Source: Caedimonas sp. (GTDB taxonomy: Bacteria; Pseudomonadota; Alphaproteobacteria; Caedimonadales; Caedimonadaceae). From it: a DNA stretch of 64,000 nt. Within the stretch, counting starts at the first letter, position 1. Each line of letters begins with the position of its first letter. Below, piece after piece: positions 10,905-49,808 of the stretch. The notes below the pieces were generated by a model that was not told the origin of the DNA, did not search any database, and saw nothing but the letters and a program-made list of their open reading frames with translations. The DNA lies in NCBI GenBank assembly GCA_016794245.1, contig JAEUKR010000039.1:62001-126000 (forward strand). Reading direction: 5' to 3'. Position numbers and translations under genes: made by a program.

Positions 10905-11050
10905 ACCTCTTGCATAACCTATACTATATCTGGCGGATGCTTTTGGCGTTAAAAGCTCGCTTGAAATCCTCACGTACCTCATGTGCACTGCGGTTTCTCG
11001 TTCGCTTTTGCCTAAAAATCCCCACGCCATATCTGGTTCTGCAAGGGGTC
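10904..11050. repeat. Family B MITE-like element, full length (147 bp)
   Basis: The ends are GACCTCTTGCATAACC and GGTTCTGCAAGGGGTC, with TA on both sides. The TA on the left plus the first G of the element form the TAG stop codon of the ccmF-ccmH fusion. The interior contains the CTCACGTACCTCATG core and CTTTTGCCTAAAAATCCCCA. Confidence 0.9.
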
Positions 11051-11113
11051 TAATGTCAGACAGGAAAAAGAAAAGATTTGCTCTGACCGGTTCTTTTGCC
11101 CAGATAGTCCGGA

Positions 11114-26714: not shown

Positions 26715-26855
26715 GACCTTTTGCAGAACCTGATATGGCGGGTGCTTTTAGCGTTAAAATCTCGCTTGAAATCCTCACGTACCTCATATACGCTGCGGTT
26801 TCTCGCTCGCTTTTGCCTAAAAATCCCCACGCTATATCCGGTTCTGTAAGAGATC
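26715..26855. repeat. Family B MITE-like element, full length (141 bp)
   Basis: The termini GACCTTTTGCAGAACC and GGTTCTGTAAGAGATC are imperfect inverted repeats, with TA on both sides. The interior matches the copies at 10904 and 40449 (CTCGCTTGAAATCCTCACGT, then CTTTTGCCTAAAAATCCCCA). Confidence 0.9.
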
Positions 26856-26910
26856 TAATCTATGTACAGGTTCTAAAAGCGAACAAGAAAAGCCATAACG
26901 TGCGGGAGAG

Positions 26911-26973
26911 AGGTACCTGAGCAGGACGCCCCGACGTTCAAAGCGATCCCTGATTTTGAAAGGCGAAGGGTAT
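26911..26973 (-). repeat. Family A repeat end abutting a lysR start
   Basis: A reversed A left half (TGAGCAGGACGCC...GATTTTGAAAGGCGAAGGGTA). Its last bases lead straight into the ATG of the LysR gene at 26972, and the AAAGG inside the repeat is the only visible Shine-Dalgarno-like sequence. Confidence 0.75.
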
Positions 26974-27961
26974 GGCAATAGAAAAAAAAGAGAAAATAAT
27001 AGAAGAACGAAAAGAAGATTTCGTAGAAGACTTAAATAAGTCTGCTCGTTTTCGGTATTTTGACTGGGAAAAAGTTAAGATTTTTTATTATGTTGCCAAG
27101 TCGGGAAGCTTTACAAAAGCATCCTTGATCCTGAGGTTGTCACAGCCTTCTTTAAGTCGTCAGATTGCCCAGCTTGAAAGTCATTTGGGCTGTCCTCTGT
27201 TTATTCGCCGAAAAATGGGGGTGGAACTCACCCGAAAAGGTGACGAACTCTTGGAAATTGTCTCAAACATTTTCGTAGAGCTTACAGGTTTCGCGCGTTA
27301 TATGCACGCTGCCACCGCCAAGGACAAAAAAGAGAGACGGAAAATCCGGATTTCTTCGACTGAGGCAATCAACGCCTATATTCTAAGGAAGCCGCTTCTT
27401 GAGTATGCGAAACATCGTCCTGACCTTGCGTTTGAGTTGATTAGCAATGACCATTTGATTGATATCGTTTTGAACGATGTAGATATTGCCATTCGTCCTT
27501 ATGATCCAAAGGCGCGACGTGTCCAGCAGGAGCCTTTGTTTACCTTGAAGAAAAAATTGTACGCCAGTATCAACTATCTGGAAAAATATGGGGAACCGCA
27601 AACAGTCGAGGACCTGCAACATCATCGTCTTCTTGCTTATGCTCATCCTGAAGAATATCCATATACGGATGTAGAGTGGATTTTGAAGCTGGGTATCTCT
27701 GGAGACAAAATGCACCTCCCTTTTTTCACAGCGAACTCAATCGAATCTTTGATTGAAGCGGCTAAAAGTGATCTGGGAATTGTCGCTGCTTATGAAGAAA
27801 TGATAGTTGTCAAAGATTCTTGTCTGAGAAATGTACTTCCCTCTGTCACAGCTCAGAAAATAGGAGAGCATATTATTTATCCTGATTATTTTAAAGAAGA
27901 TAAAGAAATCCTTGCATTCAAGAGATATTTGCAACAGATATTATCCAATGAAAAGAGTTAG
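26972..27961 (+). CDS. LysR-family regulator, paralogue 1 of the duplicated unit
   Basis: A 329-residue regulator with a charged N-terminal extension of about 30 residues (many Glu/Lys). It is followed by the winged helix (WEKVKIFYYVAKSGSFTKAS, then SQPSLSRQIAQLESHLGCPL) and an effector-binding domain. It is strikingly similar to the LysR gene at 29534-30523 throughout, including the non-conserved N-terminus, so the two are recent paralogues. It converges with the iron-enzyme gene at 28194. The likely role is control of the enzyme/transporter unit; the inducer is unknown. The start is set by a family A repeat end. Confidence 0.92.
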   Translation: MAIEKKEKIIEERKEDFVEDLNKSARFRYFDWEKVKIFYYVAKSGSFTKASLILRLSQPSLSRQIAQLESHLGCPLFIRRKMGVELTRKGDELLEIVSNIFVELTGFARYMHAATAKDKKERRKIRISSTEAINAYILRKPLLEYAKHRPDLAFELISNDHLIDIVLNDVDIAIRPYDPKARRVQQEPLFTLKKKLYASINYLEKYGEPQTVEDLQHHRLLAYAHPEEYPYTDVEWILKLGISGDKMHLPFFTANSIESLIEAAKSDLGIVAAYEEMIVVKDSCLRNVLPSVTAQKIGEHIIYPDYFKEDKEILAFKRYLQQILSNEKS

Positions 27962-28193
27962 ACTAAGAAACCAGTTTTATTTTAAGAAGAGTGCTAACGG
28001 AAAACCCACCTAGGGGTAGGGGGCTTGAAAATAGAGAAATTAATTGATTACTGTAGGACTTAGAAATATAAAGCTTTAACCATAACTCCAAGTTCTTGTG
28101 GCCTGAAATTTCACATTTTTAGCGTTCATGATACTCTCCTTTTGCTTTCACTTAATCTCTACCTTCCTATAGTATAAGAAGACGATTATATTC
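27962..28193. repeat. Duplicated spacer downstream of LysR paralogue 1
   Basis: The stretch matches 30524-30748: both contain CCAAGTTCTTGT and CTCTCCTTTTGCTTTCACT in the same order, between the LysR stop and the iron-enzyme 3' end (or its relic). This shows that the duplication covered non-coding DNA. A short GC-rich inverted repeat near 28005-28020 could act as a terminator. Confidence 0.7.
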
Positions 28194-29285
28194 CTAATGT
28201 ATTTCAAAGGTTTGTGCAAGTCGTTTTTCCATTTGATCCAGGAAATGAAGCGTCAATTCAAACAGACAGATGGTTAACGCCGCGTGAGAATGTCTCTGGG
28301 GCGCAAGATGAGAGGAAAGCAGCAAAGGCATATCGCAATGACGATGCTCCTGGTTGATTTTGTAATGAAGATCATATCCCCTTGCAGCATGAGGTTTGGA
28401 AGACAGCTTGATCGTGCGGGAGATGGGATCCTGTCCCTCATAATAGGCGGCTTCAAACAGATTGATCATACCTGAAAAAGCGAGAGGAGAAATAACAGCA
28501 GTACGCGCATGAGACGCCAGCATCCACTTGGTGGCGGCGCCGGTGGCGAACGCGTCTTTATCCAGCCCCAGATCATCAAAGACCTGCTCCATAAACTTGT
28601 AATGACCAGCTTCGTCACAGATGAAATGATTGATCAGATCCTTGGCCGTGGAAAAGAAAGTCAACGCCGGCTCCATCGCCTTGCAAGATTCCGTTGTCAC
28701 ATACCAGGATTGTCTGGAGATCCACCCGATCGCCTCAAAAAACTTCTTTTCATCTTTTTTAAGAAGGCGCTCTAATGACTGTCCAAAGCCGTCCTGACCG
28801 GACCAGGTGACGCTTTCCCAATCCAGGCGATAGCAGATCAAATAGGATACCAGGCTCATGGGATCATAAAGATCGGTGCCTTCAATGCGCGCCTTGTCTA
28901 AAATCCGTTCTCTATCCCACGTCCAGGCGGAAGGAAGATCTTCTTGCAACTCTTTAGCGATCTCGCACCCGAAGGTCGAAACAAGCGCGGCTGGCGTTGA
29001 GCAATCTATGGTCAGCTCTGTACAGGGTTGAAGATCTTTTCCCTTGAAGCTCGCCAAGCTTCTAGGTTGAATATAAAAAACAGGATAATCTTTCAATTCC
29101 TGTATGAATCTCTGGACATTCAGGTTCTGAGAATTCGATTGAAGGTTTCGAATCCCGTCTTCGACCCACTCTTTATCTTCTTCGGTGACATCAACCTCCA
29201 TAGACATCCAAGGAAGAGAGAGCATAAAACTTTGATGGTTTGTATCCCAATTAATTGACAGCTTTTCATAAGGCGCGTAAAACAT
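28194..29285 (-). CDS. Putative haem-oxygenase-like iron enzyme (HDO-type)
   Basis: A 363-residue soluble, mostly helical protein without signal peptide. I assign it tentatively to the haem-oxygenase-like diiron oxidase/oxygenase superfamily. The reason is a possible metal-ligand set in the right order and spacing: Glu225-x2-His228 (CDEAGHYKF), Glu278 (NLFEAAYYEG), then His314-x3-Asp318 (NQEHRHCDMP). The usual last His three residues after the Asp is not present. The N-terminal 120 residues are unassigned. The gene faces a LysR regulator convergently, and its promoter region carries a TTAG-N11-TTAA dyad and a relic of a POT transporter gene. The substrate is unknown; a ferritin-like or other helical fold is an alternative. 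Confidence 0.5.
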   Translation of the reverse strand: MFYAPYEKLSINWDTNHQSFMLSLPWMSMEVDVTEEDKEWVEDGIRNLQSNSQNLNVQRFIQELKDYPVFYIQPRSLASFKGKDLQPCTELTIDCSTPAALVSTFGCEIAKELQEDLPSAWTWDRERILDKARIEGTDLYDPMSLVSYLICYRLDWESVTWSGQDGFGQSLERLLKKDEKKFFEAIGWISRQSWYVTTESCKAMEPALTFFSTAKDLINHFICDEAGHYKFMEQVFDDLGLDKDAFATGAATKWMLASHARTAVISPLAFSGMINLFEAAYYEGQDPISRTIKLSSKPHAARGYDLHYKINQEHRHCDMPLLLSSHLAPQRHSHAALTICLFELTLHFLDQMEKRLAQTFEIH

Positions 29286-29316
29286 TTTTTCCTCTTTCGA
29301 TTATTTGTCAAAAAGA

Positions 29317-29335
29317 TTAGAGTGAATCTGCTTAA
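29317..29335. promoter_or_regulatory. Candidate LysR operator, copy 1
   Basis: The dyad TTAG-N11-TTAA lies 32-50 bp upstream of the iron-enzyme start and is conserved at the equivalent place in the second unit (30840-30858). The T-N11-A type layout fits LysR-type regulators. Binding is inferred only. Confidence 0.45.
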
Positions 29336-29371
29336 TTTTCAATACCCTTTGGAATGAAAAAAACTTTTTTG

Positions 29372-29476
29372 GTGCGAAAAATCTTGAGACTTCATCTTTT
29401 TAAAAATACGCCTCAAGATTTTATAATCTGTTTTCATCCTAATCTGTTTGGGATGCGGTCATTTCTTGACTTTTAA
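29372..29476 (+). pseudogene. Relic of the 5' end of the POT transporter gene
   Basis: From a GTG the frame reads VRKILRLHLFKNTPQ, which matches the intact transporter start MGKILRLRLFKQYPS at 30896. DNA similarity continues to about 29440, then stops, and the frame ends at TAA 29474. Only the first 20 or so codons of the gene remain upstream of LysR paralogue 2. Confidence 0.85.
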
Positions 29477-29533
29477 AGGAGAATAATATTTGCTGCATAG
29501 AGATCCAGAGGTATTTCGTATTGAGAGGGCTGC

Positions 29534-30523
29534 ATGACAGAAGAAAAAGAACAGAAAACAACACAAGAAACAAAAGAAGATGTCGTAGAAGAATTGAGCA
29601 AGGTTTCCCGTTTTCAATATTTTGATTGGGAAAAAGTCAAGAGTTTTTATTATATCGGGAGATTGGGAAGCTTTACGAAGGCGGCTCAAGTTCTGAGGCT
29701 GTCACAGCCTTCTTTAAGCCGTCAAATCGCCCAGCTTGAAAGTCATTTGGGCAGTCCTTTGTTCGCCCGCCGAAAAAAGGGGGTGGAACTCACCCGAAAA
29801 GGAGAAGAACTCTTAGAAATTGTCGCAACCATTTTTGTAGACCTTACAGGTTTCGCGCGTTATATGCGCGCCGACAACGCCAAGGACAAAAAAGAGAGAC
29901 GGAAAATCCGAATTTCCTCAACTCATGCGATCAACGCCTATATTCTGAGCGATCTGATTTTTGAGTATAATGAACATCGTCCTGATCTTGCCTTTGAATT
30001 GATTAGTGATGATCATTTGATTGATATTGTCTTGAACGATGTCGATGTTGCGATTCGTCCCTATGATCCAAAAGCGCGACGTGTCCAGCAAGAACCTTTG
30101 TTTAACCTGGAGAAAAAATTATACGCCAGTCTCAACTATCTGGAAAAATATGGGGAACCGCAAACAGTCGAAGAATTGAAATATCATCGTCTTATTGCTC
30201 ATGCCCACGCTGAAGAATATCCCTATGCTGATGTGAGTTGGATCTTGAGATTAGGTATGCCCGGAAACACAATGCACGTCCCTGTCTTCACGTCAAATTC
30301 CATCGAATGTTTAATTAAAGCAGCAGAAAATGGCATAGGAATTATCGCTAGTTATGAGGAAATGACGATTATCAAAAATTCTTCTCTGAAAAATGCACTT
30401 CCTGATGTCAAAGATAACAAAAAAGAATGGAATTTTATTTATCCTGATTATTTTAAACAAGATCAGGAAATCCTCGCATTGAAAAGCTATTTATCTCAGA
30501 AATTACACTTTAAAGAGAGTTAG
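29534..30523 (+). CDS. LysR-family regulator, paralogue 2 of the duplicated unit
   Basis: A 329-residue LysR regulator, the same length as its neighbour at 26972 and nearly identical in the helix-turn-helix (SFTKAAQVLRLSQPSLSRQI) and most of the effector domain. Differences concentrate in the effector-domain half (for example around residues 130-150 and 240-300), which suggests that ligand specificity may have started to diverge. It lies upstream of the POT transporter, on the same strand, with a relic of the iron-enzyme gene between them. Confidence 0.92.
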   Translation: MTEEKEQKTTQETKEDVVEELSKVSRFQYFDWEKVKSFYYIGRLGSFTKAAQVLRLSQPSLSRQIAQLESHLGSPLFARRKKGVELTRKGEELLEIVATIFVDLTGFARYMRADNAKDKKERRKIRISSTHAINAYILSDLIFEYNEHRPDLAFELISDDHLIDIVLNDVDVAIRPYDPKARRVQQEPLFNLEKKLYASLNYLEKYGEPQTVEELKYHRLIAHAHAEEYPYADVSWILRLGMPGNTMHVPVFTSNSIECLIKAAENGIGIIASYEEMTIIKNSSLKNALPDVKDNKKEWNFIYPDYFKQDQEILALKSYLSQKLHFKES

Positions 30524-30748
30524 AATAGAACATATCAGAATCTAAGATAAGACCCCTCTAAAGAGGGAGAGGCCTTTGGAAATAAGGGACTTAATCGGCT
30601 ACTATAGACTACTTAGAAAACATAAACTTTAGGAATAACCCCAAGTTCTTGTTGCCTGGAACTTTACATTTTTACCTTTCATGACGCTCTCCTTTTGCTT
30701 TCACTCAACCTCTACCTTCTTTTATCTCAGGTAAAGATACTTATATTC
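30524..30748. repeat. Duplicated spacer downstream of LysR paralogue 2
   Basis: Homologous to 27962-28193. A small hairpin CCCTCT-AA-AGAGGG near 30552-30566 follows the LysR stop and may be a weak terminator. No gene is present. Confidence 0.7.
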
Positions 30749-30815
30749 CTAATATGTTTCAAATGCTTGTGCAAGCACTTTTTGCCGTTGATCCAAGGTA
30801 CATACAAATTTTTCC
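30749..30815 (-). pseudogene. Relic of the iron-enzyme gene (3' end fused to its leader)
   Basis: On the minus strand the segment ends LDQRQKVLAQAFETY-stop, matching the intact protein end LDQMEKRLAQTFEIH-stop. It is joined directly to sequence matching the intact gene's leader (AAAGAGGAAAAA). About 1 kb of coding sequence has been deleted between the two. Confidence 0.88.
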
Positions 30816-30839
30816 TCTTTTGATTGTTTGTCAAAAAGG

Positions 30840-30858
30840 TTAGAGTGAATCCACCTAA
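30840..30858. promoter_or_regulatory. Candidate LysR operator, copy 2
   Basis: TTAG-N11-CTAA is a perfect 4-bp dyad about 38-56 bp upstream of the POT transporter start. It matches copy 1 at 29317-29335 in position and flanking sequence. It survived although the divergent enzyme gene was deleted, consistent with a continuing role in transporter control. Confidence 0.5.
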
Positions 30859-30895
30859 TTTTCAATGCTCTTTGGAATAGGAAAACGTTGTTATA

Positions 30896-32416
30896 ATGGG
30901 AAAAATATTGAGACTTCGTCTTTTTAAACAATACCCCTCCGGATTTGATAACCTGTTTTTGACTCAGGCTTTTTTTAACTTCAGCTTTTATGGGATAAAA
31001 TCTCTTTTTCTCCTTTATGTCATGGCGCAATTTTCGTTAAGTCAAAAAGATGCGATTGGATTTTTTGCTCTGTTTATGGCTGTGGCCTATGCCAACTGTA
31101 TTGTGGGGGGAATGATTGCCGATAAAAGTTTGGGCGTCAAGAATACCACGATCATAGGGGGATTCCTGCATGTGACAGGCGCTGCGTGTTTGTTGGTCGG
31201 GTCGGAGGCGTGGTTCTTCCTTGGTTTATCGTTGGTCAGTTTAGGTTCGGGACTGTTTAAACCCAACCTTTCAACAACGGTGGGGCTTCTTTTTGACAAT
31301 CCACAGGATCCGCGAAAAGACAAGATTTTTTCCACCCTTTATATCGCCATGAATCTTGGCGGTTTCGCAGCGCCTCTTGTTTGTGGGCTTATCGCTAAAA
31401 ACTGGGGATGGAAGCAAGCTTTTTTGTTGATCGCACTGATGTTTTTGATCGCAATATGTCTCTTTTATAGAAGAATCAATGCGAACCCTGCTCTTAAACA
31501 CAGGAAAGAGTTGTCTTCCTTTGAGGGGAATATATTGTCCAATCCTGTCCTGATGACGATATTCCTTGTGGCTATAGTTTATCTTCAATATCTTTTATTC
31601 GAACACCGTTCCTCTTTTAACCATTTGATGGGAATAGTGGCTTTGGTGAGTTTGGCCTATCTTGGAAAAATCGTCTGTCAATGTAATCGCCAGGAAAGAC
31701 GAGACGTTTTTAGCATCATCGTTTACATCATTTGTTTTGCTCTTTTTTGTTCCCTGTTTGAACAGGCAGGAAGTTCTTTGATGTTATTTTATGAACACGC
31801 TGTCAATCGACATATCATGAACTTTGTTATTCCCGCTTCTTCCTTCATGTCTTTAGGGCCTGTATTCGTGTTAATCTTGAGTCCTTTGATTGTTCTCTTC
31901 TGGGAAAAGATCCTTGAGCGGAACAAGCGAATGAATGGATTGACAAAAATAGGGATAGGTTTTTTGTGGGTCAGTGCCAGCTTTTGGATCCTGGCGCTAA
32001 GTACTTGCGGAAACAAGACGCTTGTCTCGCCCTTTTGGATCGCGGGAGCTATCTTTCTCCAAACGATCGGAGAACTCTGGATCGTTCCCATAGGATTTTC
32101 CAATGTGTCCAAATTTTCTCCGCCACGTTTCCGCAGCCTGATGATGAGCTTTTGGCTGATGGCGATTGCGTATGGCCATTATTTTGCTGGCTTTATAGCG
32201 TATTTGTCACTAAGCGAGACACCGTCATCGATGATGTCGTCTCTATCGGCATCGTCCGAGTTGACGTCGCCTGTGGACTTGGCGCATTACGGCGCTTTCT
32301 TCTTTAATCTTAGTCTTCTGCCTTTCGCTTTGGCCGTTGGTTTATTGCTTTATGTAGGCATGAAACGGTGTCAAAATAGATTAGGCATTAAGAGGGGCGT
32401 TTCTGCGCTGTCCTGA
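30896..32416 (+). CDS. POT/PTR2-family (proton-dependent oligopeptide type) transporter
   Basis: A 506-residue MFS transporter with about 14 hydrophobic segments. It keeps the POT signatures GGMIADKSLGVKNTTIIGG and FSTLYIAMNLGGFAAP and the block SLGSGLFKPNLSTTVG. The proton-coupling motif ExxER of helix 1 is replaced: the aligned residues are Gln24, Phe27 and Asn28 (TQAFFNFSFYG). Peptide uptake is therefore only a family-level guess; the protein may be uncoupled or use another substrate. The start MGKILRLRLF is supported by the relic copy at 29372. It is probably controlled by the LysR protein encoded just upstream. Confidence 0.88.
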   Translation: MGKILRLRLFKQYPSGFDNLFLTQAFFNFSFYGIKSLFLLYVMAQFSLSQKDAIGFFALFMAVAYANCIVGGMIADKSLGVKNTTIIGGFLHVTGAACLLVGSEAWFFLGLSLVSLGSGLFKPNLSTTVGLLFDNPQDPRKDKIFSTLYIAMNLGGFAAPLVCGLIAKNWGWKQAFLLIALMFLIAICLFYRRINANPALKHRKELSSFEGNILSNPVLMTIFLVAIVYLQYLLFEHRSSFNHLMGIVALVSLAYLGKIVCQCNRQERRDVFSIIVYIICFALFCSLFEQAGSSLMLFYEHAVNRHIMNFVIPASSFMSLGPVFVLILSPLIVLFWEKILERNKRMNGLTKIGIGFLWVSASFWILALSTCGNKTLVSPFWIAGAIFLQTIGELWIVPIGFSNVSKFSPPRFRSLMMSFWLMAIAYGHYFAGFIAYLSLSETPSSMMSSLSASSELTSPVDLAHYGAFFFNLSLLPFALAVGLLLYVGMKRCQNRLGIKRGVSALS

Positions 32417-32553: not shown

Positions 32554-33675
32554 TTACAGCTTTATCCAGGAAGGAATACAGGGTTTTAGGGGAATGGCGC
32601 CAATGAAAAGCGGCCGTTGAAGATCTTCAAGGCGTAGCCGCGCGATCCCTGATGTGGCTTGAAGGCTATACAGCTCTCCCACCTTGTCGCCGTTCTCTCC
32701 GATGATGGGCGCTTCGCCTCTCAAGCTGTTGTCAGGTCGGGGAGCGGCTTGGCGCGGGCGCGGTTGCCGGGTATCATCGCGACTTGCTTCGCTTGTTTCC
32801 TTTGGAGACAGGGACGAGGCACGCGGCTCACAGCGCATCGACCAGATGATCTCAAGGTCCTCAGGTGAGGATATGACGATCTCAACGGGGAGTAAACGCT
32901 TGCGAATTTCACCGCGATATTTTGTGCGAGCCACCAGTTCCTGACCCAAATAGCACCCCTTTGTCCAGCCGATGGCGTTTAGGTCTTGCAATCCCGCTTC
33001 TAAGGGAATCGAACGGTCAGCAATCATATCCTTGCCGGCTTCTGGGATGCCTAGTTTGACTCTTGAAAGTTCATACGTCTCGTCGTCTTCCTGATAAAGA
33101 AAATCAGAACAAATATTCTTATATCCTTCGTCTTTCAAGCTGTGGGGATGTTGTCCTTCCGGATTCGTTCCGCTCGCCGTGTCCTGATGATACGCTGCGC
33201 AGGACTCGCTGTGCGTCTGCCTGATCACATCCACATCCTGAAATCGTTTGGGGATATGCTTGACCACCCAACGGGCGCCCAACAGGGAAAGACGCGGGTC
33301 GACAAACCGTATGCCGCCTTGCCATTCCTCGGTTTGCCCCGCATTGCCGCCTTGATGATCGGGGAGGGCAAAAACTGCATAATCATCCGAAACATCCTCA
33401 AGAGTCACCTGTGCGCGTAGCTTATATAAACCCAGACGTTTTTTTAAAGCGTCAATCTGATCTTTTTGTGTGTCCAGGAATACGGCGTCCCCTTCTTCAA
33501 TGAGGAAAAAATCATGAAGAAATTTTCCCTGAGGGCTTAGCAAGGCGGAATAAAGCGAATGAAGAGGCGTCAGAAGATTGATATCATTCGTGATTAACCC
33601 TTGCAGGAAATTTTTCCGATCCACTCCCGTCAGGCGCAAAATGCCTCGTTTTAAAAGAATGATCGGCTTTGGCAT
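32554..33675 (-). CDS. ygfZ: YgfZ/GcvT-family folate-binding protein with in-frame repeat insertion
   Basis: YgfZ is a tetrahydrofolate-dependent protein that supports assembly and repair of certain Fe-S enzymes. The 373-residue protein has the family signature GWTKGCYLGQELVARTKYRG and the N-terminal folate-binding fold (LTGVDRKNFLQGLITNDINL). It is longer than most alphaproteobacterial homologues. Residues 140-186 are encoded by a complete family A repeat (33118-33256) read without a stop. A second unusual stretch, residues about 281-325 (rich in Arg, Pro and Ser), may be another insertion. The conserved signature regions are intact, so the protein may still work. Confidence 0.9.
   Translation of the reverse strand: MPKPIILLKRGILRLTGVDRKNFLQGLITNDINLLTPLHSLYSALLSPQGKFLHDFFLIEEGDAVFLDTQKDQIDALKKRLGLYKLRAQVTLEDVSDDYAVFALPDHQGGNAGQTEEWQGGIRFVDPRLSLLGARWVVKHIPKRFQDVDVIRQTHSESCAAYHQDTASGTNPEGQHPHSLKDEGYKNICSDFLYQEDDETYELSRVKLGIPEAGKDMIADRSIPLEAGLQDLNAIGWTKGCYLGQELVARTKYRGEIRKRLLPVEIVISSPEDLEIIWSMRCEPRASSLSPKETSEASRDDTRQPRPRQAAPRPDNSLRGEAPIIGENGDKVGELYSLQATSGIARLRLEDLQRPLFIGAIPLKPCIPSWIKL
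33118..33256 (+). repeat. Full-length family A repeat inside ygfZ
   Basis: On the plus strand it starts ATATCCTTCGTCTTTCAAGC, contains TACGCTGCGCAGGACTCGCT and ends GAAATCGTTTGGGGATAT. Both ends and the core match intergenic copies. It is 139 bp and open in the ygfZ frame, where it encodes about 47 residues. Confidence 0.9.
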
Positions 33676-40383: not shown

Positions 40384-40655
40384 TATACCCTTCGCCTTTC
40401 AAAAACCGGGGGCGTTGGACGTCGGGCTTCGTCCTGCTCACGTCCTTAGACTTTTTGCCTGGACTAAATCTGGCAGGTGCTTTTGTCGTTAAAAGCTCAC
40501 TCGAAATCCTCACGTACTCTACGTACGCTGCGGTTTCTCGGTCACTTTTGCCTAAAAATCCCCGCGCCATCTTTGGCCATGCAAGAAGTCTTATGTACGC
40601 TGCGCGGGACTCACCGCTCGTCCGCCTACCCGGATTTCGAAATCCTTTGGGTATA
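40384..40655 (+). repeat. Family A repeat interrupted by a family B element
   Basis: The A left half (TATACCCTTCGCCTTTCAAA to CTCACGTCCTTA) and the A right half (TTATGTACGCTGCGCGGGAC to CTTTGGGTATA) are separated by a B element at 40449-40590. TTA is present on both sides, which indicates target duplication. Uninterrupted A copies (for example 46828 and 57031) show the empty site. Confidence 0.9.
40449..40590. repeat. Family B MITE-like element nested in A (142 bp)
   Basis: The ends are GACTTTTTGCCTGGAC and GGCCATGCAAGAAGTC, more diverged than other copies. The interior matches the full-length B elements at 10904 and 26715. Confidence 0.88.
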
Positions 40656-49583: not shown

Positions 49584-49667
49584 TTTCCTTCCCTTATTTT
49601 TTAGCTTTTTTCTGTCATTCTTGTTTCTTCCTGCCATTACTACACAGGCGAGAGTTCAGAAAAATCA

Positions 49668-49808
49668 GACCTCTTGCAGAACCAGATATGGCGTGGAGAT
49701 TTTTAGGCAAAAGCGAACGAGAAACCGCAGCGTACATGAGGTGCGTGAGGTATGGAGCCAGCTTTCAACAGCAAAAGCATTCGCCAGATATAGGTTATGC
49801 AAGAGGTC
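49668..49808. repeat. Family B MITE-like element, full length (141 bp), opposite orientation
   Basis: The termini GACCTCTTGCAGAACC and GGTTATGCAAGAGGTC are flanked by CA and TG. The interior is in reverse relative to the other long copies (TTTTTAGGCAAAAGCGAACG, then GTACATGAGGTGCGTGAGG). Confidence 0.9.

Follow-up and report, generated by a model that had tools for sequence, protein, structure and literature searches.

The ygfZ/CAF17-like gene on the minus strand at positions 32554 to 33675 of the DNA analysed here (a stretch of 64,000 nucleotides, referred to as the window) raises the question of why a piece of repetitive DNA lies inside a conserved coding sequence and what this means for the protein. 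The first-pass annotation had claimed that a complete 139-bp repeat is read through there in frame and without a stop. This was confirmed, as the gene starts with ATG, its 373-aa open reading frame is intact with the KGCYLGQE motif kept, and about 47 residues (140-186) are added. The product was assigned to the YgfZ/CAF17-like proteins by TIGR03317 (72.6 bits, cut-off 49), and Pfam domain analysis revealed GCV_T and the CAF17 C-terminal beta-barrel. The repeat copy occupies positions 33118 to 33256 on the plus strand (CTTATATCCTTCGTC...GTTTGGGGATA) and is read on the minus strand, giving the peptide HIPKRFQDVDVIRQTHSESCAAYHQDTASGTNPEGQHPHSLKDEGYK as residues 140-186 of YgfZ. Whereas the repeat itself proved real, its annotated extent required correction: the consensus of the family, termed family A, is about 129-131 bp long, and the ygfZ copy is near-complete and carries about 8 extra bases. 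Likewise, the 47 codons stood, whereas the interruption of the protein is 141 bp long, slightly wider than the noted 139 bp.

Only one ygfZ was found in the 1.33-Mb host genome, which is represented by one draft assembly of 56 contigs. The reduced genome and the presence of two large insertions in one protein would fit a decaying pseudogene, in which the frame stayed open across the insert by luck. This is very unlikely, as all 373 codons are open and the KGCYLGQELVARTKYRGE motif is kept in the sole ygfZ found, and as the ubiA, folC, rsm22-like and permease genes described below are likewise open with the repeat inside.

Comparison of positions 33118-33256 with the host genome by blastn revealed 36 matches at E<=0.001 (self counted), and the matches to other loci reached E-values of 2e-18 over nearly the full length. 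When the YgfZ protein was compared with its own genome, the remaining matches all fell on the repeat block, the widest covering residues ~134-215. A profile built from 24 copies yielded at least 150 family A matches in the 1.33-Mb genome, and 108 of 162 profile hits in the fetched regions were near full length. The consensus derived from copies of the window and the fetched loci is TATACCCTTCGTCTTTCAAGnTGTGGGGGTGTTGGACnTCGGGATTCGTCCTGCTCACGTnCTTnTACGTACGCTGCGCGGGACTCACCGCTCGTCCGCCAnCCCACATCTTGAAATCCTTTGGGTATA, and the ygfZ copy scored 92 bits with the profile. The resemblance of the block to dispersed copies, as annotated, is thus well founded. Chance likeness of the block to the repeat was refuted by the blastn E-values and the profile score.

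The first-pass annotation had let its claim stand or fall with an alignment of YgfZ homologues and with the likeness of the block to the intergenic copies. The block 140-186 was missing in all homologues aligned (29/29), and it clearly resembles the dispersed copies. The nearest relatives with ygfZ (genomes G001-G003) belong to another genus of the same family as the host, and a YgfZ scan of a genome-contig collection found no relative. In G001-G003 the same linker holds shorter, unrelated expansions (~25-30 aa in G002 and G003). These could suggest that the block is an ordinary lineage-specific YgfZ loop whose likeness to the repeat arose by chance or assembly error, but given the nearly full-length blastn matches and the family profile score we attach next to no credence to this explanation. 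A profile alignment to human IBA57 (6QE3) placed the block in the linker that leads from the DPR..LG.R segment to the Y..R...G.PEG segment. Both insertions of this YgfZ fall where homologues vary in length, and the 140-186 insert is expected to form a flexible surface loop.

The second insertion (positions 32720 to 32867, minus strand; residues ~270-317, LEIIWSMRCEPRASSLSPKETSEASRDDTRQPRPRQAAPRPDNSLRGE) was present in this YgfZ alone among the aligned homologues. It comprises 48 residues and is located in a C-terminal domain loop after the RKRLLPV segment, according to the IBA57 alignment. Its G+C content is 62%, compared to 46% across the window. This insertion is not a family A copy: its DNA has no repeat elsewhere in the host genome and no match in a plasmid collection, and only a weak protein match (E 0.04) was found elsewhere in the genome. 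An NCBIfam scan with the peptides of both insertions gave no match.

Family A carries terminal inverted repeats (TATACCC...GGGTATA) plus TTTCAA...TTGAAA arms, and well-preserved copies fold as one long hairpin with z-values of about -4 to -7. In the ygfZ copy, family alignment and frame analysis located the 5' palindrome arm (plus strand, consensus TATACCCTTCGTCTTTCAAGCTG) at positions 33118 to 33140, where the coding strand gives ..HSLKDEGY(K), and the 3' arm (plus strand, consensus CACATCTTGAAATCCTTTGGGTATA) at positions 33234 to 33256, where it gives (H)IPKRFQDV. The structure of one copy pairs in 78.6% of the family alignment cells, compared to 30-51% when slid by 1-3 columns, and two-sided changes in the hairpin were more numerous (38) than in shuffles (27+-4). 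RNAalifold, applied to the plain sequence alignment of family A, predicted no consensus pair. The hairpin is largely lost in the ygfZ copy (z -1.2) and in the ubiA copy (z +2.1). Strong folding is also missing in L013, L017, L022, L009b and L029, for which no coding role has been shown, and weak pairing is therefore not peculiar to coding copies. A hairpin-forming element within an open reading frame could in principle be bypassed, so that the segment might be missing from the mature product through splicing, translational bypass or proteolysis. Such removal is extremely unlikely: it is needless because the frame is open throughout, the hairpin of the ygfZ copy is weak and no RNA family was matched in an Rfam scan of the ygfZ region.

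The ends of family A are TA-rich. Target duplication of 1-10 bp outside TACCC..GGGTA was not above that of shuffled pairs in 33 clean copies, and a TA duplication is indistinguishable from the element's own TATA ends. Comparison of family A with plasmid and phage records revealed no sequence match.

In several places an interposed piece interrupts a family A copy close to the palindrome apex (window 40384-40655; G000 C17:102383-102655, C13:23547-23818 and C44:35181-35433). The piece at window 40384-40655 is a second repeat family with the ends AGACCTCTTGCATAACC, which also stands alone at window positions 10918-11056, 26723-26861 and 49664-49750. A further family A copy (G000 C17:27558-27684), in the other orientation, immediately precedes the lipoprotein signal in an ORF for a TPR protein and may be a leader rather than coding. 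The window also contains several direct repeats of 62-300 nt at 26972-30892, which are 79-83% identical, spaced by ~2.55 kb (one pair by 1.5 kb) and located upstream of a transporter-like ORF (30896-32416); this region looks like a tandem duplication.

ORFs around the copies found with the DNA profile were inspected. At least five conserved genes carry an interior family A copy with the frame open on both sides. In addition to ygfZ (window 33118-33256), the DNA-profile scan revealed ubiA (C12:14099-14231), folC with a short copy (C33:12617-12672), a gene for an amino-acid (APC) permease (C45:40281-40388) and an Rsm22-like gene with a short copy (C16:733-800), the last two being judged from reading frames and Pfam. 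The gene contexts were read from stretches around family A matches, so the five genes are a minimum; an ORF that only met a copy at one of its ends, or overlapped one by short read-through, was not included. For YgfZ, UbiA and FolC, relatives show the site empty. UbiA relatives lack residues ~210-254, and the flanking matches are separated by no more than a few bases (6 bp between HSPs in G002); the alignment rows L202, L211 and L212 were wrongly picked ORFs and were left out. FolC relatives lack ~26 residues at the insert. The lengths of the family A inserts in proteins range from 27 to 47 aa.

A peptide-profile search revealed further candidates. In MurG, a block of ~55 residues bears the family A signature PVPQDFQ...RRPHSLRDE in the same frame (G000 C45:27525-27617, L277; a weak match, E 0.07), and murG is probably a sixth gene with an interior insert. 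Moreover, a TolR-like and a PstS-like protein end in a C-terminal tail derived from family A (G000 C18:45085-45141, L274, and C27:16948-17016, L276, respectively), and the frame is the one used by the interior inserts. The MurG, TolR, PstS and C46:26690 candidates were kept out of the estimate of frame bias because the peptide-profile search is frame-specific.

The frame-neutral DNA scan, in which six frames were possible, showed that a single one, hmm- frame 1, is used in all five clear cases. In the better-preserved cases it reads (I/L)PKxFQDV...SLKDEGY. Availability does not explain this choice, because the used frame is free of stops in just 24% of the 87 full-length copies, whereas on the opposite strand the three frames are open in 52%, 66% and 37% of them. 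Weighted by openness, the probability of finding all five cases in hmm- frame 1 by chance is 1.9e-5, and that of finding them in any one frame is 0.004, with n=5 being a small sample. With a mean GRAVY of -1.06 (-0.04 to +0.44 for the three opposite-strand frames), the used frame is the most hydrophilic, and its peptide contains little cysteine. Since the two companion frames on this strand come close to it in hydrophilicity, this property accounts better for the strand than for the precise frame. Most simply, insertions in the opposite orientation would place hydrophobic, cysteine-bearing peptides in proteins and would therefore have been purged by selection. The recurrence of one peptide through the consistent use of one frame out of six could also suggest that the insert was domesticated and gives YgfZ a new function, for example as an interaction loop. 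We consider this unlikely, as the host proteins are unrelated enzymes and transporters, the inserts vary in length from 27 to 47 aa, and hydrophilicity alone explains their tolerance.

Taken together, it is very probable that the block arose when a copy of a palindromic mobile repeat, specific to this lineage and non-autonomous, was inserted into ygfZ in frame and tolerated. A family A element of ~130 bp with TATACCC...GGGTATA ends would have inserted in frame into the gene and landed in a linker that naturally varies in length. The copy would then be read in the hydrophilic, cysteine-poor frame (IPKxFQDV...HSLKDEGY), and such a peptide should allow YgfZ to tolerate the insert as a flexible surface loop. 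The constraint on the hairpin would have given way to a coding constraint, with the ygfZ copy drifting from the palindrome. We infer that family A moves by copying of the hairpin-forming element at TA-rich sites. The insert is presumably translated, and it is presumably tolerated rather than beneficial.

The search for family A in other genomes gave no match in G001-G003, the genomes of the same family. A diverged sister repeat of the same layout was present in G007 and G009, which belong to another family of the same order; G007 matches the MAG Alphaproteobacteria bacterium Dive96_bin4.281 (JAJSAD). The sister repeat of this MAG matches family A in its positions (TATACCC.TC.TCTTTCAAACTGTGG ... 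CTCACGTA..TACGCT ... CCCACA.NTCGAAAT ... GGTATA) but differs in being diverged, scoring ~15-24 bits with the profile of family A. Among its sampled loci, none had a copy that spans an ORF. Weak partial family A matches were observed in G014 and G028.

These observations might point further, to an antisense frame of a palindromic mobile element that is kept translatable, so that one hydrophilic peptide was added time and again to genes of one lineage. Protein-coding palindromes would then have arisen a second time, independently of those in Rickettsia and Wolbachia, and the other family of the order would hold a related element; we put this reading forward tentatively and with considerable doubt. 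The significance of family A is based on its being a distinct repeat family in another alphaproteobacterial genome, on the at least five genes, on the empty sites for three of them and on the decayed versus intact hairpins. It would show that small repeats repeatedly yield new protein segments in reduced genomes, and YgfZ, UbiA and FolC offer testable cases of proteins that tolerate inserts of 27-47 residues.

Family A can be compared with two kinds of known elements. The bacterial MITEs ERIC/RU-1, the 107-bp Correia/NEMIS and YPAL/RU-2 are small and non-autonomous, are sometimes fused in frame, and most have terminal inverted repeats and TA at their ends (PMC2229807). Compared by description and not by sequence, family A shares with them the terminal inverted repeats and the TA at the ends. 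It differs in that no target duplication beyond TA was demonstrated and the plasmid and phage records gave no match.

Rickettsia and Wolbachia are the best-known sources of in-frame palindromic elements, and the Rickettsia palindromic elements (RPEs) hold to one reading frame and yield hydrophilic peptides. RPEs are stem-loop repeats of 100-150 bp, reported from all sequenced Rickettsia and from Wolbachia, and lie between as well as within genes, in many of them in frame (PMC3767692, PMC10969869, PMC2229807). One RPE-4 sits in a Rickettsia "putative aminomethyltransferase" (PMC3767692), which could belong to the same protein superfamily as YgfZ. The first-pass annotation had drawn the parallel to these elements, and it was substantiated in every behavioural feature that was compared. 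Family A is likewise a dispersed repeat of ~130 bp with many copies and forms a long palindromic stem-loop, though a weak one in the ygfZ copy and several others. It is found in frame in unrelated conserved genes whose homologues lack the insert (YgfZ, UbiA, FolC), and it shows a single preferred reading frame (5/5). The sequence itself is different, as had also been proposed. Among the RPE families with models, the RPE1 model TIGR01045 reached at best 12.2 bits in the host genome (cut-off 30), at another place than ygfZ, the peptide of the YgfZ insert had no NCBIfam match up to E=10, and the Rfam scan of the ygfZ region gave nothing. Moreover, the TATACCC...GGGTATA ends of family A are unlike those of RPEs. 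Judged from sequence, we rate the family A sequence as apparently new and in-frame palindromic elements as a kind as already known. In the features compared, family A behaves as the RPEs do, yet it constitutes a sequence family separate from RPE1.
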